Below, in pieces: positions 3,515-39,841 of a stretch of DNA of 64,000 bases. Position numbers and translations under genes: made by a program. Numbering within the stretch: position 1 is the stretch's first letter; every line of letters begins with the position of its first letter. Origin of the DNA: Tubiluchus corallicola (Eukaryota > Priapulida > Priapulimorpha > Priapulimorphida > Tubiluchidae); contig JAQGDQ010000361.1 in the NCBI GenBank assembly GCA_030141605.1, forward strand, positions 1-64,000. Direction: 5' to 3'. The notes under the pieces were generated by a model. The model was not told where the DNA came from. It did not search any database and was given only the letters and a program-made list of their open reading frames with translations.

Positions 3515-4050
3515 AACTACGGCCAAATCACGTTGAAAACGCCGGGTCTCGTCTGATCACCGAAGTCAAGCAACGTAGAGCTGGTTAGTACTTGGATGGG
3601 TGACCGCCTAGAAATACCAGGTGCTGTAGGCTTGCGGGATGCCCACACTGTATCTCAAACTAGGTGGAGGAGCTGTAGAAGCTGCCAACTGCTAGAGGGC
3701 AGAGGAGGTCAAGTGACCCAACGGCCATACGTAGAGGAGTAAACCTTCCGAGTGGAGCCCCAAAGGCGGACCAGTCCAGCATGCTCACTGACTCCGGCAG
3801 CTCCTGCAGCCAACCTGGTGCCAAACGTATCGCCCCGCTTTCCTTTGGACTACACCAGCGAGGAAGAGAGGGGGTTCCTGTGGTCTGGGCACCTCAGGAT
3901 CTCCATACACCTTGCCCAGCCGTGCGCCCTGGAGACATTCAAGGATCGGACTCTCTTGGCGCACATTTCATTGTCTTCCGAGACAGAAGGATGCCAACAA
4001 CAACAATAATAATAAAAAATAGAAATAATAATAATAATAACAATAATAGA
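3515..4050 (+). mobile_element. 5S rRNA-derived SINE (SINE3-like)
   Basis: The first ~120 nt (3515-3634) are a nearly full-length 5S rRNA: ctacggccaaatcacgttga, then tctcgtctgatcaccgaagt, then ggttagtacttggatgggtg, ending ggtgctgtaggctt. The TFIIIA/TFIIIC internal control region (the aagcaacg and tacttggatgggtgaccgcc boxes) is intact. About 370 bp of unrelated, relatively GC-rich body follow, then a caacaacaac(aat)n tail to about 4050. 5S head plus body plus short-repeat tail is the architecture of SINE3 elements. A true 5S gene would end after the gcctt with a T-run terminator, which is absent. The microsatellite upstream prevents recognition of a TSD. Confidence 0.8.
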
Positions 4051-17939: not shown

Positions 17940-18290
17940 ATGGCAAAATTTTGGATTGCACTGGTACTGTGTTTCAGTTCTCTTCCAAAACTTAGTCTAA
18001 ACACAGTGATGTTTTACCTGGGATGTTATGAAAGATGGGATGACTTCGACATAACGTTTGATATGTCGGACTTCAAATATTACATGGATGCATGTGTTGA
18101 TTATTGCAACGAAAACAACAGTAAGTATGCCCTAATGGACAACAGTAAAACGTGTGGATGCTCTAGAAAGTACAGTACGGAGAGGTCACTTGCAGGCAAT
18201 GAAAGTTATTGTGCCACACGTTGTAAAACACGTAACCTCAATAAAAACTACGTGTGTGGCAGCAAAAGACATTGGAGTGTTTACGTCGTA
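17940..18290 (+). CDS. Signal peptide and WSC domain (N-terminus of the polycystin gene, before the frameshift)
   Basis: From ATG 17940 (context tttgcaATGGCA) the protein starts with MAKFWIALVLCFSSLPKLSL, a clear signal peptide. A WSC domain of about 90 residues follows: YLGCYERW, then CVDYCNEN, CGCSRKY, YCATRC, and VCGSKRHWSVYV. WSC domains bind carbohydrate and form the N-terminus of polycystin-1 and fungal wall sensors. The WSVY motif, its normal end, lies at about 18273-18284. This frame then runs into non-homologous residues to a stop near 18443, while the polycystin frame begins in +1 register right after a TAG (18289-18291). One surplus base within about 18285-18293 would join the two exactly at the domain boundary. 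An intron is implausible because there is no room for one. Confidence 0.85.
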
Positions 18291-18291
18291 G

Positions 18292-21200
18292 GTGACAGAT
18301 GCCCCTGTGACGGTATACAACTGTTCCATAAATTATTCCATGTCTCTCGCCTGGCATTTCAGTTTGGTGCCAGAGTCAGATATGTATTCTTGTCTGCAAG
18401 GAAGTCAACTTGCAAAAGAGACAACTCTAAAAATAGATTCTGATAAGTTCATCACAGTAGATACTGGTATTCTAGCACCAGGTACATACACTGTCAGCCT
18501 TACACCAACATTGACTTCAACACAGAGCTGGTTGAATAGTAGAAGCTATAAGCCTACATTGGGATGGATTATTATCTCCAGTAAGCTAGAACCTATTATT
18601 GCTGGAGAATTTCTTAGAAACATAAGCTGGAAAGACAATCTAACAATGGATGCGTCAGCTTCTTATGATGCCTGTGTGGCAACTAATGAAATCGACACTA
18701 ACCTAACCTACAAGTGGAGCTGTTATATAGAGCTAGATTTGTTTAGCTATTCATTCACAACGGGGATTGGCTGCATCGAACGTAACACTACTGCTCTGTC
18801 ATTTAATAAACCAACTTTTACAATTTCAGCCAAAACTTTTCCACAAGATTCAGTTTTAGTATTCACGCTTGAGTTGGGGAAGCCTAATCGGCCGTCAGAA
18901 ATAAAACAACAAGTAGTAAAAGTGATACCAGCAGGAGCCGAAATTATCCAAATAAATTGTTTAAAAAACTGCAGACGCCGTGTGAACAAAGCTGAAAGCC
19001 TAATCCTGCAAAGCGTTTGTGTGAGCTGTAATAACGATACTTTATCAACTGGTATCTATTATTGGACTCTAAGAGCAAGATCCTTGCTAAATGATGGTAG
19101 CACTCTCTTAAATATTACAGCATTTGCCATTGTCAGAAAGGGAACTGATGTAATTGTCCTGAAAAAAGATGTTTTCATTCCAGGACATGTGTATCTGATA
19201 GAAGTAAAGGGTGGTCCTGCTATTAGTATTCCAGGAACGGCCTTTTATGAAGTGTTTGTTTATGAGCCACCACCATTCAAAACTGCCTGTTCTGTTATTC
19301 CAAGCGAAGGAATAGCACTGAAAACAAAATTTTCGTTACAATGCGACAATAGTAGCTTCGTCAGCACCTTCTTCACCTATGATTTTTATTACAGAAATTT
19401 TGCAGGAAAAACTGAAATGAAAGGGTCTAAAGGAGATTTTTTATACAGCAGCACAGAGCCCATACTTCCGCCGGTAACTCTTCCAGCTGGAGAAGGTAAG
19501 ATTTTGCTTCAAGCAACGAATATTACAAAAGAAACATTTCTAGTTGAATATAATGTTACAGTTTTACCATTTCTATGTAACGAAACTGACAAGGTATCAG
19601 AAGTTGAATGCGAAACATACATTTTAAATGCTTTGAAGAATTTGACATCTTTGACAAGTATGAAAAATGAAACAGACATTCTTGATTTTATTCAGACTTT
19701 GAAAGTTATAATGGAGGAAGTAAGTAAAATAAGAAAACAAAATGAAACAGAAGACCCTGAATTTGTACAGAAAGTTACTGAGATGAAATCTGAGATCCAA
19801 GCGTTGGTGGTAAATCAACTTATTCAAGTTCCTGTGTCCACTCACAAAGTTATGAAATTCCTATCATCAATGATGAGCCAAGTCATCACTTCTGATGCCG
19901 ACCTAAATCCAGAAATCATAGTACCTATCACTGCGAAGTTTCACGATATTGCAACATTTATGAAACAAAGCACAGAAGATATAAACGTGAATGATTTAGA
20001 AGATACTACAAGTGCTCTTCTGCTTGCGGTATCCATTATTCTTGGTGAAACTACTAAACGAACTAGCACATCTAATGATGAAAAATTTAAACAACTTTCA
20101 AAAAGAGAACTTCAAAATACATTTCGTCACAAACGCGAAAATGTTACACAGGTTAAAAATATAATTCTGAAATCAATTGACACGATTCATAATGCAGCAT
20201 CAGCTACTTTACGTCATAAAATTGTATATGATGAACCAACTACTTTCACGACAAATCTATTAACGCTTAGAGTAGCACGGCAAAAGGTTAGTCATTTAGG
20301 AGGTTCGGAACTGCAGTTAAATGGTTTTGGTCATTTTCAGTTGCCTTCTGCTGCAGCGCTTTCAAAAATGCAAGAACATGAAGATGAACTAGAATTAGAG
20401 ATTTTGTCCATAAAACAAAATATATTCACACCTTTTGAGTCGACTCTTCACAGTAGCATTCCTATTGCAAGTTTATCTATTGGCAGACAGCTGAGGCATT
20501 CTAGAACTGAATTTGATGAACTTTCTGAGCCCCTAGAATTTTTCATGGATGTTGCAGCTGATGCAAAGTACTCAAAATCATCTTTTGTGAAACTTGAAAA
20601 CCATTTGTTTAACAAGTACATAACTGTTCACTCATTTGTTCTTAATGCTCATAGTACAGCTATAATGTCTTTTCAAGACATGCCTGTCGGAGTTGCATTA
20701 AAGGTCGTTACCAAAACAGGCAAAAGACCTGTGATTGAAAACTTCAATGATGGTTCCACTGTTTTTCACATTCCTGCCATAAATGGAGGCTATTATAGTA
20801 GACAGTTTGCTGACAATATTGTGAGTTTCTATAATGAACAGAACGTATCCATTAAGTATTTCGCTGGCATTTTATTTGACTCTTATTATGAGCCTTCGTG
20901 CTTCCATCCATCTCTTAGATGTAAGTCAGAAAATGTTGAGTGCATGGCAGGGATCTACAGCGATTGTGATGGCAGCCTACATGAAGCTTCGTGCAAAGGA
21001 AATGCAAGTAGGATTTGCAGTGTAGATAACTGCATGCAGAAGTATGCATGCTATAATGATTGGGTTGAAAACTGTAAAAATATATCTCGTTATTGTGATT
21101 CGCAGCACAGACAATGTCTGTCAGTGCTAGACTACAGATGCAGTAAACATAATGTGAAATGCTCTCATGATTGCAGTACATCTCTCGAAATTGAAACTTG

Positions 21201-24200
21201 TCTTCCGATTTGTACGAAAAAGCATCAGCGGTGTCGCCAGAGTTCTCAATTCAAGTGCGAAACTGTAAAAAGTTGTGTTAGGAATAGTGACTCTGCTTGT
21301 ATTGATACACTGCTTGTTGAAACCAAGGCACAGCATTGTAGATATATGATGCTGAAATGTGACGAACAGTCGACAGGTGAGTGTGACACAAGTTTTGTTT
21401 CTTGTAATACAACGTGTTATCAATGTCTGCCTAAATGTGATGCAGAAGTTACACAAAATTGTGTCAAAGCCTGCAAAAACCTACGCACATCTTGTTATTC
21501 AATGGCTAATCAAGTATGCAGGCAATACGTAATTAAGAACAATGATAATTGTGCTAATATTCCATGGAAAACAAATGAAGAGCAAAACGAAGCTGCAACT
21601 CCTGCATTTCAGGAGCCAGATTTGACATATTTTGTGTTTTTACATACAGCTGATATTAAGGATAGTGGTACCAAGGCACGCGTGTATCTCAGACTTCATG
21701 GTAATCGCAGAATTACAAATGAGCTGCTGCTTTCTAAAAGAACGTTTAAACGAGCTACAGTTGAAAAATTTACAATAGAGTCACAGTCAATTGGAAAATT
21801 GGAAAAAATTACTGTTTGGCACAATAACCAGGGAATAGGAGCAGGGTGGCTCCTGGAAAAGATAGTTGTCAAGGAAGAACAGCTAGAGTTTACTTGTCCC
21901 TGTATGACTTGGCTGGCTGGTAGCCCATTAGAAAACGAAAAAATATTTTCCTGCTACGTGGTTGCAAATTTTACTCCTACTGTTAATCCTCCCATACAAC
22001 GTGTTGACTTCAATCTCAGCTTTTACTCAGTAAAGTGTCTATATTGGAACATATCATTGTACAATTGGTTGGACGGGGGATGCTTTGTGGGCCCATTAAC
22101 AACGCCAAGTCGAATTCATTGTAAATGCTATCATATGACCATATTTACTGGAGCCGTTGTTGTAAAACCAAATCAGATTGATCCATTTGAAGATGTTGTT
22201 CTGTTCGCGACATTTTTTGACAATCCCGTAATTATTGTGTTCATGCTGGTTGTGTGGTTGTTGTATTTGACCTTGCTTCTATATGCAAGGAGAAATGATC
22301 AAAAGGATACCACGCGGGTAGGTGTGACAGTACTGGAAGACAATAATCCCATTGACAAATATACATACCTCATCATTACGTTCACAGGATTGAGGCAAGG
22401 TGCAGGGACAACTGCTAAAGTTACATTTTTAATCGAAGGAAAAAATGGAAATAGTTTGCCTATTAAGCTTTATCATAAAGACAGATCAACATTTGACAGC
22501 GGAGCTGACGATTGGTTTCTGATGACTACACATCAATGTCTTGGCGAAATTACTGCTATCGAAATATGGCATGATAATTCTGGATATGATCCTAATTGGT
22601 TTCTAAAACTAGTCATTTTAAAAGACGTACAAACAAATGCAGTCTGGTGTTTTCCCTACAATAACTGGCTAGCTATTGATCGTGGCCCACAGACTGTGAA
22701 GTGTAGGCTCTTCCCAGCCTTCAAACATGAACTTGTGAGGTTTACTCACATCTTTGCTTATAGGGCTTTGCGAGGCTTTAGAGACGGCCACTTGTGGGCA
22801 AGTGTGTTTTACAGACCACCTAGAAGTAGTTTTACAAGAGTTCAAAGGCTATCATGTGCTTTGTCATTGATGCTGACTGCCATGCTTTCCAACATTATGT
22901 TTTACGGGATAGCCACCAATAAGCCTGAGACTCAAATAATAATAGGGGAAATTCAGTTATCTTGGACTCAAATTTATATTGGTGTTGCAAGTGTCTTAAT
23001 TACTTTTCCAATCAACATACTTATTATTCAAATGTTCCGCTCTGCAAAACCTTATCCGGGCAATCGTTTCAAGCATTTTTCTTTTGGATGGTGCTTTAGA
23101 AGAAATCGTGATCATACAGAAAACGAGAGCTTAATTGAAAGCGATTCCTCAAGAAATTTTGAAGAAACAACGAAAGAAAACGTTGTCTTGTTTGGAAGTG
23201 AAAATGATTGGCTGAAGTGGATAAATAACACTAGACATATCGAAATTGAAACCTTAAAGGAAATACAGCACAACATTGTGGAGGCAAGAAGAATGATAGA
23301 AATTCTGCCAAAGTGCGTTCCTGCATTAGATCAAAACAGACATTTGGCTAGAAAATCTGTAATATCACTGAAAAGAAATCCCTACATTTATTCCACAAAT
23401 ATCAGTCGAAAAAATAGAGTGGAATCTAACATAGACATCGCTTATAAATACAGTGACGACTTCAGCATTGACTCACAGAGTACAAGTTCTACCATGAGCA
23501 CTGACAATCATATAAAATCGATACCATTTCCCTTTTCACTCTGCACTGGGAAGGACGTCTATGGCAGTCCAGTCATGATTTTGCCATGGTGGTTTGTGTA
23601 TATCGCTTGGTTGTTAACTATTAGCATTTCATTGATTTGTACTTATTTAGTCATGCTTTATGGTTTAAAATTTGGCTATCAGAAAAGTGTCGAATGGCTC
23701 TTGTCAATGTTGGTGTCAGTTATGTCCAGCATTTGCTTAACTCAGCCAGCAAAAGTTCTAATATTGGCTCTAGTGATAACGTTGATATTTAACCATCCGC
23801 CTGAAATAGAACCTGCAATGGCCGAATTACAGCTATTGCAAGTTGAAGAAAGTAACAGGCTGCAATCTGACTGGCTGGTTAAACATCGAATTATTACAGA
23901 GCGACGATATAAATACAGACCTCCAAAGGAAAGTGAAATTGCTGTTATCAGAGAAAAACTTCTACAAAAACAGAACTTCAATAAAATAATGAGCGAACTT
24001 CTCCTTTTTAGCTTTTTCGCTTTAATTTTATCAACCCTAGTTTTTAACTTTCGTGACAAAAGCTTTTTCTGGGTAACCAAAACTGTTAAGGATCTTGCGA
24101 TTAATGGAGCTTACTATCAAGGAAATACAACGTTCGCTGCAATAACGGATGTTCCAGGTATATGGGATTATGTAACTAACTCTTTGCTACCAAGTCTGAC

Positions 24201-25611
24201 GCCAGGGAGTCTTTATAACGGGCAACCAGTACCATTTGTAGTCGCTGCTGATTTAGTTACGAGGTTAATAGGAGTTGTCCGATTTCGTCAGGTACGAGTG
24301 AAACCAGGCCAGTGTTTTGTGATTTCAATTTTTGAACCGTATGGTCGAAAGTGCACCGGTGAATACCATTGGCACCGAGAAGATACCACCTCCTACGGGC
24401 CTGGGTGGAGCTACAGTCGATATCCCCGCTATCCTCCTGATCACTGGACATTTCAGTCTAGTTTGTCATTGTGGACTCCTGCATTCCCTGGTAGATTTCA
24501 TTTATACAGTGGAGGCGGTTATTTGGTGGAACTAAATCATTCTACTGCTGAAAACAGAGCCATTATTGAATCACTGATCAACTCGAGGTGGATAGACGAT
24601 CGCACTCGCGCTTTAATGATTGAACTTACTTTATTTAATTCTAACACAAATTTGTTTAGCATTGTTATTTTGATAGTAGAATTTACTGGTCTAGGTACAG
24701 TAACTCCATTTTATAGCATCTCCACCATGGACTTGGCAAAATATGCCACATTTTTAGATGTACGCGTCATGGTAACTGAAGGTATTTGTTTAATTATACT
24801 AATTATTTTCATATGTATGGAAGTTAAGAAGTTCAATGTAATTAAGTTTGAATATTTTCGTAACTATTGGAATTATGTGCTATTAACTATAGTGATTTTG
24901 TCTGCTGTTCGCATAGTAGTTTTCTACAGAAGAACAATTGCAGTTAACACACTTTTAGAGAAGAACTTTAAAGGGAAGCAGTCTAGTTTTGTTAACTTTT
25001 ATGAGGCAGTAAGTTGGCATTACTTGTTTACAATAACATTGGGCACACTCGTCATCAGCGTAACAATTTATCTTTGGCACATGTTACTATTGAACAAAAG
25101 TATGTCAGTTTACTGGTTAACTTTATCACTATCCTTCCGACCTATGTTACATTTTTGGTTGCTAGTATTTATTTTTTTAGTACCGTTTGTACTTGTACTG
25201 ACTACATTGCTTTCCGCAAACATACAAGAAGATTTTAGCACGAATGCTAAAACTCTTCAAACTTTATTACGCATGATTTTCAGATCAGGTAAATTTTGTG
25301 CCTTGGAGACCTTACAGTGGGGACTGGGCTCACTGTTCGTTGTTATTTTCATATTTATATCTATAGTCATTTTGCTTTGCATGTTAAGAACAATATTAAT
25401 GCTATCGCATCGAATTGCAGTGCAACGTTGGTTAAATACGAAAAATCATTATGATATTTTTTATCATTTTTATCATTATATCACTCAGAAAATGCCCTGG
25501 TTACAGCGAAAACAAGATGCCGCAAAAATACTACCAAGTCGAAGCATCTTTCGTTTCACGGGATTTCCTCTACATGATAGATATTCGATTGATGAGTCTA
25601 ATTTCTGCTAA
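18292..25611 (+). CDS. Polycystin-1/PKDREJ-like protein, 11 transmembrane segments, intronless
   Basis: An open frame of 2439 codons. Residues are counted from the GTG at 18292. 1-99: beta-rich, possibly PKD-like. 100-430: REJ module (EPIIAGEFLRN, LTMDASASYD, YKWSC). 440-865: GAIN-like. 869-1087: 32 cysteines. 1110-1222: PLAT-like. 1245-1290: GPS (CLYWN..W..GC ... CKCYHMT, cleavage expected before T). 1311-1333: TM1. 1356-1477: second, canonical PLAT. 1517-1539 and 1554-1582: TM2-3. About 1583-1760: cytoplasmic loop with a helical stretch. 1765-1833: TM4-5. 1903-1920: TM6. 1932-2143: polycystin/TOP extracellular domain. 2157-2371: TM7-11 with pore region. The tail ends DESNFC. Family members are receptor-channel subunits in cilia or sperm acrosomal membrane. 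Mammalian PKDREJ is likewise single-exon. Orthology to PKD1, PKD1L or PKDREJ is not decidable by eye. The long intact frame implies selection until recently. Confidence 0.93.
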   Translation: MTDAPVTVYNCSINYSMSLAWHFSLVPESDMYSCLQGSQLAKETTLKIDSDKFITVDTGILAPGTYTVSLTPTLTSTQSWLNSRSYKPTLGWIIISSKLEPIIAGEFLRNISWKDNLTMDASASYDACVATNEIDTNLTYKWSCYIELDLFSYSFTTGIGCIERNTTALSFNKPTFTISAKTFPQDSVLVFTLELGKPNRPSEIKQQVVKVIPAGAEIIQINCLKNCRRRVNKAESLILQSVCVSCNNDTLSTGIYYWTLRARSLLNDGSTLLNITAFAIVRKGTDVIVLKKDVFIPGHVYLIEVKGGPAISIPGTAFYEVFVYEPPPFKTACSVIPSEGIALKTKFSLQCDNSSFVSTFFTYDFYYRNFAGKTEMKGSKGDFLYSSTEPILPPVTLPAGEGKILLQATNITKETFLVEYNVTVLPFLCNETDKVSEVECETYILNALKNLTSLTSMKNETDILDFIQTLKVIMEEVSKIRKQNETEDPEFVQKVTEMKSEIQALVVNQLIQVPVSTHKVMKFLSSMMSQVITSDADLNPEIIVPITAKFHDIATFMKQSTEDINVNDLEDTTSALLLAVSIILGETTKRTSTSNDEKFKQLSKRELQNTFRHKRENVTQVKNIILKSIDTIHNAASATLRHKIVYDEPTTFTTNLLTLRVARQKVSHLGGSELQLNGFGHFQLPSAAALSKMQEHEDELELEILSIKQNIFTPFESTLHSSIPIASLSIGRQLRHSRTEFDELSEPLEFFMDVAADAKYSKSSFVKLENHLFNKYITVHSFVLNAHSTAIMSFQDMPVGVALKVVTKTGKRPVIENFNDGSTVFHIPAINGGYYSRQFADNIVSFYNEQNVSIKYFAGILFDSYYEPSCFHPSLRCKSENVECMAGIYSDCDGSLHEASCKGNASRICSVDNCMQKYACYNDWVENCKNISRYCDSQHRQCLSVLDYRCSKHNVKCSHDCSTSLEIETCLPICTKKHQRCRQSSQFKCETVKSCVRNSDSACIDTLLVETKAQHCRYMMLKCDEQSTGECDTSFVSCNTTCYQCLPKCDAEVTQNCVKACKNLRTSCYSMANQVCRQYVIKNNDNCANIPWKTNEEQNEAATPAFQEPDLTYFVFLHTADIKDSGTKARVYLRLHGNRRITNELLLSKRTFKRATVEKFTIESQSIGKLEKITVWHNNQGIGAGWLLEKIVVKEEQLEFTCPCMTWLAGSPLENEKIFSCYVVANFTPTVNPPIQRVDFNLSFYSVKCLYWNISLYNWLDGGCFVGPLTTPSRIHCKCYHMTIFTGAVVVKPNQIDPFEDVVLFATFFDNPVIIVFMLVVWLLYLTLLLYARRNDQKDTTRVGVTVLEDNNPIDKYTYLIITFTGLRQGAGTTAKVTFLIEGKNGNSLPIKLYHKDRSTFDSGADDWFLMTTHQCLGEITAIEIWHDNSGYDPNWFLKLVILKDVQTNAVWCFPYNNWLAIDRGPQTVKCRLFPAFKHELVRFTHIFAYRALRGFRDGHLWASVFYRPPRSSFTRVQRLSCALSLMLTAMLSNIMFYGIATNKPETQIIIGEIQLSWTQIYIGVASVLITFPINILIIQMFRSAKPYPGNRFKHFSFGWCFRRNRDHTENESLIESDSSRNFEETTKENVVLFGSENDWLKWINNTRHIEIETLKEIQHNIVEARRMIEILPKCVPALDQNRHLARKSVISLKRNPYIYSTNISRKNRVESNIDIAYKYSDDFSIDSQSTSSTMSTDNHIKSIPFPFSLCTGKDVYGSPVMILPWWFVYIAWLLTISISLICTYLVMLYGLKFGYQKSVEWLLSMLVSVMSSICLTQPAKVLILALVITLIFNHPPEIEPAMAELQLLQVEESNRLQSDWLVKHRIITERRYKYRPPKESEIAVIREKLLQKQNFNKIMSELLLFSFFALILSTLVFNFRDKSFFWVTKTVKDLAINGAYYQGNTTFAAITDVPGIWDYVTNSLLPSLTPGSLYNGQPVPFVVAADLVTRLIGVVRFRQVRVKPGQCFVISIFEPYGRKCTGEYHWHREDTTSYGPGWSYSRYPRYPPDHWTFQSSLSLWTPAFPGRFHLYSGGGYLVELNHSTAENRAIIESLINSRWIDDRTRALMIELTLFNSNTNLFSIVILIVEFTGLGTVTPFYSISTMDLAKYATFLDVRVMVTEGICLIILIIFICMEVKKFNVIKFEYFRNYWNYVLLTIVILSAVRIVVFYRRTIAVNTLLEKNFKGKQSSFVNFYEAVSWHYLFTITLGTLVISVTIYLWHMLLLNKSMSVYWLTLSLSFRPMLHFWLLVFIFLVPFVLVLTTLLSANIQEDFSTNAKTLQTLLRMIFRSGKFCALETLQWGLGSLFVVIFIFISIVILLCMLRTILMLSHRIAVQRWLNTKNHYDIFYHFYHYITQKMPWLQRKQDAAKILPSRSIFRFTGFPLHDRYSIDESNFC

Positions 25612-31288: not shown

Positions 31289-31928
31289 TTTTCTTTAGAC
31301 CCGGCGCACTTTAAGCACTGATCACATCACCAGTAATGAAACAACTTAACAGACGCTGTCCTTTCTTTAGACCCGGCGCACTTTAAGCACTGATTATACC
31401 ACCAGTAATGAAACAACTTAACAGACGTTGTTCTTTCTTTAGACCCGGCGCACTTTAAGCACTGATCACATCACCAGTAATGAAACAACTTAACAGACGT
31501 TGTTCTTTCTTTAGACCCGGCGCACTTTAAGCACTGATTACACCACCAGTAATGAAACAAATTAACAGACGTTGTTCTTTCTTTAGACCCGGCGCACTTT
31601 AAGCACTGATTGCACCACCAGTAATGAAACAACTTAACAGACGTTGTTCCTTCTTTAGACCCGGCGCACTTTAAGCACTGATTGCACCACCAGTAATGAA
31701 ACAACTTAACAGACGTTGTTCTTTCTTTAGACCCGGCGCACTTTAAGCACTGATTGCACCACCAGTAATGAAACAACTTAACAGACGTTGTTCTTTCTTT
31801 AGACCCGGCGCACTTTAAGCACTGATTATACCACCAGTAATGAAACAACTTAACAGACGTTGTTCTTTCTTTAGACCCGGCGCACTTTAAGCACTGATTG
31901 CACCACCAGTAATGAAACAGCTTAACAA
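31289..31928. repeat. 72-bp minisatellite, nine units
   Basis: ttctttagacccggcgcact starts at 31291, 31363, 31435, 31507, 31579, 31651, 31723, 31795 and 31867, a strict 72-bp period. Units differ mainly at gatcacatcacc/gattgcaccacc/gattataccacc and ctgtcc/ttgttc. Because 72 is a multiple of 3, one minus-strand frame stays open as a 24-residue repeat (FHYWWCNQCLKCAGSK...). I treat this as a by-product of the period. Confidence 0.97.
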
Positions 31929-37620: not shown

Positions 37621-38255
37621 AAGAAGAAGAAGAAGAAGGAATATCTTTCTACACAGTACACATGTATCACACTTAAATCAACGATTGCATCTTGAATAAT
37701 TGTTTTTTGATGTTAAGCTAGATACTGATCCGCCTCACAACCAACGCCATAGTAATCCCTGCCTTTTATCGAGTGCACGGATTATGGCGTGTAGTCTCTA
37801 CACACTGAGTGCAAGTCATGCTCATATGCAATTCAGACTCGTGTTAAAAACAGTAGACGGCTTTGGCCTTCTGCATAAAATACTATGACGACACTGTTTG
37901 CAAAAATTATCACAACATTTATAATAATTGCGATACAATTTCACAGATTTTTCTCATAATCGCAATACAATAAAACCAAAAAAATACTTGAGCCAAAACA
38001 TTATTAATTTTTTTTTACAAAGTGTAACAATTTCGTGCAAGTATGAAAGGTTGATTTTTCCACTGAAGCTACGCTCATCTGACGTCACAGTAATGATGAA
38101 GATCGAAAATTTTTGTGGTAGAAACTTCCCAGTTGTTTTTCCCTTCTGCTTGTAAATTTGTCATTTCAATTTTGCTAGGGAGAATTTTCAATAATATTTC
38201 TGAAAAAGAAAAAAAATCATGTATTAGTAAGGTGCTCTAAGCGCGATTTAAAATT
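37621..38255. other. Non-genic spacer
   Basis: I see only chance frames. A (gaa)n-type run at about 37620-37640 ends the preceding LINE fragment. Confidence 0.4.
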
Positions 38256-38501
38256 TTGAATGATGGCATCGTAATTGATGAGACGCAAAATAGGAAACCG
38301 AAAGCAATATACTGTTTTGTCAAAGATAAATCAATTCTCACCAGCAAGAAACTTTCCCTCAAAACAAATTTGAGACTTCTCAGTGCATTTGTAACCAGTA
38401 TCTTCACGTACAATAGTAAAATGTGGTGTTTGACTGCAACTCTGGAAATGCTAATAAATTACGACACAATTTCATACATCATTGTATGTCAAAGTAAATA
38501 A
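38256..38501 (+). pseudogene. LINE ORF2 fragment upstream of the ETW region
   Basis: ILTSKKLSLKTNLRLLSAFV then TSIFTYNSKMWCLTATLE matches KKLSLDVRLRLFNAYVTSIF and FNSETWRLTVTQE of the minus-strand fragment at 42941. It is truncated and its frame ends shortly after. Confidence 0.6.
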
Positions 38502-38586
38502 CCTGCAGTTCCAATTCAACAAATATTCTCAGTAAGGCTGTCATACCGTGAAGTTTTGCAGAGCCTGTATTTCGACAGAGATGGAC

Positions 38587-39040
38587 CTACCCCCGTCGTT
38601 GCCCTTTAGGTCTAGGTCGTTGCCATGGGGGCCGAGGGCGCTGCCCTGGGGGCCGAGGGCGCGGAGGTCCCCCTCCTAAAACCCAAGGATTGTCGATTGA
38701 GATATATACTCCAGGCTGTGGATTGAAAGGAGAGCGTCTACCAGAACGTCTTCCATAACGAGAACGTCGACGGGAAGGATGGCGCCGACGGGAACGTCTT
38801 CCATAACGAGAACGTCGACGCGAACGGGAACGGGAACGTCTACGGGAACGTCGTCTCTCAAGGCGAGAAATTCCACCTGGAAAGCAAAGTTTATTAAAAT
38901 CACACGGATTTCTTAATTGATTTCAACATCAGTTTCCTAATCCTCCTTATTACTCCAGGCATTAATTGCTTTAATGAAGGTTTATACTCTTATCTGCTTT
39001 TTGACGCTATAACATGCCTGTGTGCCTACTTACCAGCCAT
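38587..39040 (-). CDS. Two-exon gene for a 98-residue Arg/Ser- and Pro-rich, protamine-like protein
   Basis: Exon 1 (39040-39034) is ATGGCTG followed by a strong donor GTAAGT. A 157-bp intron (39033-38877) ends tttgctttccag. Exon 2 (38876-38587) continues in phase to TAG. Residues 1-51 read MAGGISRLERRRSRRRSRSR, then SRRRSRYGRRSRRRHPSRRR and SRYGRRSGRRS. 52-69 are PFNPQPGVYISIDNPWVL. 70-98 are GGGPPRPRPPGQRPRPPWQR then PRPKGQRRG. Two SRYGRRS repeats are visible. Exact phase joining of ATGGCTG to the acceptor, and conservation of both splice sites in a paralogue, support the model. The Arg/Ser blocks resemble sperm nuclear basic proteins and, less closely, SR proteins. The Pro/Arg tail recalls Pro-rich antimicrobial peptides. 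Function is inferred from composition only. Confidence 0.65.
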
Positions 39041-39449
39041 ATTTTTCTTTAGTTGGTAAAAAGAGAGAGATCCGACACCAACTTCCTCAGCCGAGCGTCA
39101 GACGGAGAATCAACTCCTTCAGATTCTGGTGTTAGTTCAAAAAGAAAGTTGAACAGTTTTCATGGCAACGATTGTACGTCATCAATACAATATGCGTCAT
39201 CGTGCATACGTATCAATATTTGCAGTGATTTTGTATAATGGAAAACCTAGACAAAATTTGGTTTTAACGACCAGTTTTGAAATCGCTGGAATTTCTAGGA
39301 AAATGTTAAAGGAAATGAAAAGTAAAATAAGTCAGTGTAAAATTTAATATTTATTTTATCGCGCTGTACTAAATTTAACAGAATTACCGAAATTTATCTG
39401 CATGTTATTTACACAAACAACTGAGAGTCTCATACATATCTTCATAATG

Positions 39450-39841
39450 TCCGATCTTGATAATTGCAATAGTTAATTTTTGGACTCCCTGAATACGAAA
39501 ATCGCAAACAGCAACTAATTCAGAACTCTGTTGGTCAGACCTCAGAATTCAGTGCTCATTATAAAAACTATGATAACATTATACCCATTCTAAGAGAGTT
39601 ACAATAATTGCCCATAAAGTTCCAAATTCAATTTAAAATTCCTTGTATCACCTACAAAATACTACATGGTTTGGCACCTGCATACTTTACTGATCTTCTA
39701 ATATGCCGTAGCATAGGTCAAACACTTTCTTCTAATGCTAATGAAAAAATTAATTTACATCAGCCAGTTTCTCTCTTTGCTTCGAATCTCTGGAATAACT
39801 TACCGGTTACTAAATGTTCTGAAAATTATATCTTTAGCTAA
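39450..39841 (+). pseudogene. LINE ORF2 C-terminal fragment (CR1/L2-like)
   Basis: LPIKFQIQFKIPCITYKILH then GLAPAYFTDLL, followed by SLFASNLWNNLP, is the classic LHWLPVKYRI.FKIL.LTYK.LHGLAP.YL.DLL and W.NLP tail. Upstream, LDYCNS appears in a different frame. It is decayed by stops and frameshifts. Confidence 0.8.

Follow-up and report, generated by a model that had tools for sequence, protein, structure and literature searches.

An arginine-rich, candidate protamine gene of Tubiluchus corallicola appears to belong to a partly tandem family of about 15 related copies

Results

Structure of the gene and its product

The window analyzed here comprises 64,000 nucleotides, positions 1 to 64,000 of contig JAQGDQ010000361.1 of the T. 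corallicola assembly GCA_030141605.1. On its minus strand lies a small two-exon gene. The coding part of exon 1, ATGGCTG (39034..39040; ATG at 39040-39038), supplies Met, Ala and the first base of codon 3 and is followed by a phase-1 intron of 157 nt (38877..39033, minus strand; GTAAGT...TTTGCTTTCCAG) with tttgctttccag as its acceptor. Exon 2 opens with GTGG, and its coding part (38587..38876, minus strand) specifies residues 3-98 up to the stop codon TAG at 38589-38587. Donor, intron, acceptor and phase join had been proposed in an earlier note on this DNA and proved correct to the base; the 98-residue product was recomputed identically from the joined frame. Exon 2 lacks an in-frame ATG, as had also been stated, because the sole Met is residue 1.

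The spliced product (98 aa, 11.7 kDa) contains 34 R, 15 P, 12 G, 12 S and 1 K. Its N-terminus, MAGGISRLERRRSRRR, leads into an Arg/Ser core starting RRRSRRRSRSRSRRRSRYGRRS... (residues 10-51; 38731..38856, minus strand). A Pro/Arg-rich tail follows (residues 52-98; 38590..38730, minus strand), which differs between paralogues and in the window copy carries PRPPGQR-type 21-bp repeats at 38614-38662. The N-terminal Arg-richness described earlier was found again, with a slightly different count: residues 1-51 hold 26 R and 11 S, compared with a claimed 27 or so Arg in 50.

The GC content of exon 2 is 59%, versus 35% across the window. Other frames are likewise open because of the Arg-rich repeat. 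Dinucleotide shuffles of the upstream 400, 600 and 1000 nt (2000 each) gave a phase-correct ATG...GTAAGT model in 2.1, 2.9 and 6.9% of cases, respectively, and in 0.3, 0.25 and 1.25% when a good start context was required. Taken alone, the window copy is therefore only moderate evidence for a gene, since shuffled upstream sequence yields such models in 2-7%.

Other features of the window and its contig

A Pfam search with 94 ORFs of the window returned four weak one-member matches (best E 0.00049) and no additional gene. A largely intron-free polycystin-1-like gene occupies 17940-25611 (plus strand), where an ORF with a WSC domain overlaps a 2439-codon ORF with REJ, PLAT and polycystin channel domains and a GPS just under cut-off. 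The sea urchin receptors for egg jelly are described as belonging to the polycystin-1-like family (PMC1934368). This REJ-bearing polycystin, together with H1 genes of animal type elsewhere in the genome, marks the DNA as animal. At 3515-4048 (plus strand), there is a 5S rRNA match (Rfam, 86 bits) with about 370 further bases and an (AAT)n tail behind it; the whole resembles a SINE derived from 5S rRNA and not a 5S gene. A tandem array of a 72-bp unit (8.9 copies, 96% matches) with an open minus-strand frame is situated at 31290-31927. Elsewhere on the contig, a single-ORF gene of glycosyltransferase family 11 was seen (L027:1295-2341, minus strand). A search of the whole assembly for COX1 found none, while the control search recovered it in 8 of 14 genomes, so that the assembly probably lacks the mitochondrion.

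Paralogues in the same genome

Exon 2 of the window gene was searched against the same genome (343.5 Mb, 2344 contigs), so that all comparisons below concern paralogues inside one genome. This gave 24 matches, the window counted, and every other match region was examined for alignment from promoter to exon 2. At least 14 close units, the window copy and at least 13 others, align from the promoter through exon 2, and a diverged fifteenth member (L018 on C840) has an intron of 557 nt; these counts are lower bounds. Two loci that matched by the Arg repeat only, without exon 1, were dropped from the counts (L016 on C161 and L019 on C2055). Subfamily A consists of the window copy, L014 (C198, at 130 kb), L009a (C814), L010b (C1237), L012 (C2117) and L017 (C1844), and subfamily B of L009b, L010a, L010c, L011a, L011b, L011c, L013 and L015. 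Tandem units occur on C814 (two), C1237 (three) and C1876 (three), with a spacing of 2.8-4.6 kb.

Exon 1 and its donor, ATGGCTG/GTAAG(T/C), are present in 14/14 close units; L018 reads ATGGCAG/GTAAGT, one base changed. The acceptor AG was kept in 12 of the 14 close units, with introns of 145-162 nt, and is gone in L010a (L010:2357-2790) and L014 (L014:1644-2575). The latter, on the window's contig about 91 kb away, is additionally frameshifted, so copies of this family also die. It is the paralogues that decide on the reality of the gene, because the 7-nt exon 1 and donor recur in all close units and in L018. From these alignments the two-exon gene looks real, one of about 15 related copies with at least two broken. 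The cryptic gene proposed earlier is thereby strongly supported and extended to a multigene family.

The duplicated unit, as delimited by matches of the subfamily A copies to the window, extends approximately over 37684..39827 (minus strand). The shared edges at 39827 and 37684 at first resembled the ends of a mobile element; this reading was rejected and the unit was treated as an ordinary duplicon. Beyond the 37684 edge, most pairs of other copies remain homologous over a further 80-155 bases or so, L011a and L011b over more than 1.1 kb and pairs with L010c over just 7 bases. The window copy adjoins another repeat at 37684, and this left end is not proven as an element end. A search with the 3′ region gave 40 scored matches, 29 of them outside the protamine-like family; part of this region is probably a dispersed, LINE-derived repeat. 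The arrays and the retention of introns indicate duplication at the DNA level and not retroposition. The 3′ part of the unit also contains a complete CRE palindrome, TGACGTCA, at 38080-38087 (minus strand), and a well conserved ctttttcag at 38200 (minus strand) that could end a 3′UTR intron.

Proteins encoded by the family

Following in-silico splicing, 13 of the 15 units (12 of the 14 close units and L018) gave proteins of 47-122 aa, open to a stop codon. These consist of 28-49% Arg with 0-5 Lys, and each contains 2-8 runs of at least three Arg and 6-14 RS dipeptides. The computed pI was 12.0 in 13/13, which is the ceiling of the programme used. All 13 start with MA(G/V) and carry E(R/K)RRS at residues 9-13, and ten have RSRSRSRRRSRYGRR in the core, altered in L010b, L017 and L018. 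The tails after RSRSRSRRRSRYGRR differ by copy, for example GPPRPRPPGQRPRPP..., KIIQPPPPLPPPFIIWPEDQ, PFLPPRPGSSGVPGAPGWQPY and VPHFWYNWWPTKRQKHYY. Most are Pro-rich, with recurring modules of the PRPPGQR and PPRPG types; L010b, L011a-c, L015 and L018 lack the Pro/Arg tail or have a very different one. L013 (50 aa) and L015 (47 aa, without Pro) are short.

The window protein was compared with Pfam, NCBIfam and PDB, and nothing above cut-off and no other domain or family was found. The sole Pfam match was a gyrovirus capsid model (E = 0.29, below its cut-off); NCBIfam, a prokaryotic library, gave no match. There was no match to a curated protamine profile. Such profiles are lineage-specific, and a match to one is not a defining feature of protamines.

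The RS dipeptides found in every family protein would also suit a small, RS-rich nuclear protein of somatic tissue that binds RNA or is associated with splicing, instead of a protamine, and SRSRSRRRS runs do resemble RS domains. However, the Pfam search found neither an RRM nor another domain in the window protein, the family proteins consist of a basic core and a variable tail, and housekeeping splicing proteins would not usually be encoded by some 15 partly tandem copies whose tails vary and whose promoter has an X-box (see below). We consider such a splicing-related function unlikely.

A secreted Pro/Arg-rich antimicrobial peptide had been offered in the earlier note as the alternative to a chromatin protein. 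Arg/Pro-rich peptides can kill bacteria, and the tail of the window protein carries PRPPGQRPRPP. This proposal nevertheless fared badly: by inspection, the N-terminus MAGGISRLERRRSRRR, charged from residue 7 and without a hydrophobic stretch, contains no signal peptide, and several members have no Pro/Arg tail or an unlike one. Because a signal peptide is lacking, secretion as an antimicrobial peptide is extremely unlikely.

Promoter elements

Upstream of the window gene, an RFX X-box, GTTGCCATGAAAAC, was found at 39156..39169 (minus strand). It has two mismatches to the palindrome and fits the degenerate consensus. In paralogues its commonest form is GTTGCCATGGAAAC, one mismatch from the palindromic GTTGCCATGGCAAC. 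In 11 of the 14 units, an X-box with one mismatch lies between -120 and -191 relative to the ATG. The X-box of L009b has three mismatches and fits the degenerate consensus; those of L010c (four mismatches) and L018 (GTTGCCATGGAAAT at -104, two mismatches) fall outside it. Just before the X-box, TGACG(T/C)A occurs in 12 of the 14 units, being absent from L011a and L017; in the window copy it is TGACGTAC (39174..39181, minus strand). We take this motif to be a CRE-like half-site.

Both strands of the 64-kb window contain no X-box with zero or one mismatch, and the degenerate consensus matches 54 times over the two strands. Only the strict form is thus informative, since the degenerate one is common. 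Between subfamilies A and B, identity within the 5′ part of the unit (promoter to exon 2) peaks at 0.92 in the 20 columns 39174-39155, inside which lies the X-box. It is 0.85 at the acceptor, 0.82 at exon 1 and the donor, about 0.2-0.7 in the intron and 0.07-0.40 upstream of about 39205.

The X-box consensus, RYYRYYN(1-3)RRNRAC, and the palindrome used above are those given in PMC4168999. In mouse spermiogenesis genes, RFX2 sites are reported as a 14-bp inverted repeat near the start sites (PMC4498915). In the part of that study used here, Rfx2 mutants showed no reduction of Tnp1/2 mRNAs, and a direct link between RFX and protamines in mammals is accordingly not shown there. An RFX X-box beside a CRE-like half-site is as would be expected of flagellum or spermatid genes, with the X-box being only circumstantial in this respect.

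X-boxes also mark ciliary genes in general (PMC4168999), and the family might accordingly encode an RFX-switched protein of cilia or flagella, of the axoneme or the sperm-tail matrix, whose Arg-rich part binds tubulin or RNA and whose tail could mediate protein contacts. Against this, 28-49% Arg with a pI of 12 is typical of DNA packing and no conserved non-basic domain is visible, making a ciliary role very unlikely.

Substitution patterns and recombination

Pairwise differences in codons 10-44 of ten members numbered 62, 26 and 129 at codon positions 1, 2 and 3, respectively. The pattern points towards coding constraint, but the pairs are non-independent. A per-site test, also on ten members but partly different ones, gave 8, 10 and 10 variable sites at positions 1, 2 and 3 over 35 codons and hence no sign of purifying selection (p = 0.46); the counts were 5, 4 and 8 (p = 0.17) for codons 10 onwards and 3, 6 and 2 (p = 0.93) for codons 3-9. 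NG86 dN/dS in the core ranged from 0.11 to 2.64 among 24 listed of 55 pairs, with one undefined. The substitution patterns are mixed, and selection appears neither proven nor excluded by them. Gaps in exon 2 over 45 pairs comprised 180 runs that are a multiple of three and 155 that are not, from which no inference is drawn either way because the tails do not align.

In part of the 3′ flank, the window copy is 90-95% identical to ten other copies from both subfamilies, which is above the identity of the 5′ part; L009b has a dissimilar 3′ flank. Strong divergence between the 5′ parts of A and B, set against similar 3′ flanks with L009b as an exception, makes recombination or gene conversion among copies likely. 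Identity between copies is therefore not in itself a sign of function. The case for a working gene was built on preserved architecture and not on dN/dS.

Several of these observations would suit an old DNA duplicon whose copies are decaying or were never translated and whose repeat units, being multiples of three, keep the frame open. The codon-position test is not significant, the 3′ flank is at least as similar as the gene, other frames are open as well, the acceptor was lost from L010a and L014, and L013 and L015 are short. Yet exon 1 with its donor, the acceptor and the X-box stand out from their surroundings within the 5′ part, the diverged L018 retains the architecture and a similar protein start, and 13 of 15 units are open to the stop despite very different tails. 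A mere duplicon is on this evidence distinctly unlikely.

Discussion

The window gene probably is functional and belongs to a family, expanded recently and in part tandemly arranged, of genes for short, extremely Arg-rich and Lys-poor nuclear proteins, that is P-type protamines or protamine precursors. Extreme Arg content, near absence of Lys, lack of domains, small size, many variable copies and an X-box promoter are together best fitted by a family of lineage-specific, fast-changing P-type protamines, as we infer from the sequence. The male-germ-line chromatin function suggested in the earlier note agrees with composition, absence of domains, fast diversification and the conserved X-box, all of which are observations at the sequence level.

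In such a protamine family, an RFX factor, perhaps together with a CREB/CREM-type factor, would act through the X-box/CRE block, some 100-190 bases upstream of the ATG, to activate the genes in spermatids, and the intron would then be spliced out of the transcript. The Arg clusters would bind DNA electrostatically and displace histones, while the Ser residues between them could be phosphorylated and dephosphorylated during loading. The variable, less charged tail may tune condensation behaviour or be cleaved off.

In mollusc P-type protamines, Arg clusters are separated by Ser, Tyr and Gly. The proteins of the gastropod Monodonta turbinata and the squid Loligo opalescens are, like the window protein, small and highly Arg-rich, the likeness being one of size and Arg content. 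The protamine of M. turbinata, with 106 aa (PMC12216123), is similar in length to the 98-aa window protein. Unlike mollusc P-type protamines, the window family has a Pro-rich tail that differs among copies. Protamines are characterized as highly Arg-rich and Arg-clustered, with a pI of at least 12 and 30 to 106 aa (PMC11607694; PMC12216123). Their mass range is given as 3-10 kDa (PMC11607694), which the window protein slightly exceeds at 11.7 kDa. Four of the 13 members are below 10 kDa (L010b, L013, L015 and L018) and L012 reaches 122 aa and 15.2 kDa; cleavage of a precursor is possible.

Insect protamines share the Arg clusters, their precursors have less charged regions, and from sequence microheterogeneity several closely similar genes were inferred by the authors (PMC12216123). 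The present family differs in having been read from a genome, in being partly tandem and in having tails that are largely replaced, not just point-substituted. Drosophila SNBP genes are also fast-evolving, with copies gained and lost (PMC9917458), whereas Drosophila Prot A and B have a mixed Lys/His/Arg composition (PMC12216123) and the window family is nearly free of Lys. Among papers on multigene families and on the protamines of cnidarians, molluscs and limpets, no comparable family was found in the available text, and prior publication is possible; strings like SRRRSRYGRRS gave no literature match.

More tentatively, and with some doubt, the family may represent birth and death of sperm protamines in which a near-constant Arg core is joined to different, mostly Pro-rich tails through repeat turnover and recombination. 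If so, sperm chromatin would be assembled with a changing mixture of tails, subject to conflict or to sperm competition. The new aspects are the constant Arg core, the variable tail, the tandem arrays and the dying copies, among which a specialist would find the tail variability new. The copies offer a ready-made series for studying the function of the non-basic region of protamines. Annotation of protamine genes is reported to be poor, as their sequences are short and repetitive and their ends vary, so that ordinary searches fail (PMC12216123). The fixed architecture of seven coding bases, phase-1 intron and Arg core, combined with an X-box promoter and a free tail, provides a search rule for other invertebrates.

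H1-derived protamine-like (PL) proteins are likewise basic sperm chromatin proteins, from which the window protein differs by having no linker-histone domain (Pfam). A search of the same genome with the linker-histone model PF00538 gave five places, none of them at a family locus (0/5). Three are H1 genes and Lys-rich, so no H1-derived Arg-rich sperm protein was found by this search. Besides the H1 type of L029 and L031, a second type, AIKKYIAANYPKCDVEKLAPFIRRYLRTGV..., was seen at L030 near 1405-1970, which could be a germ-line or sperm H1.
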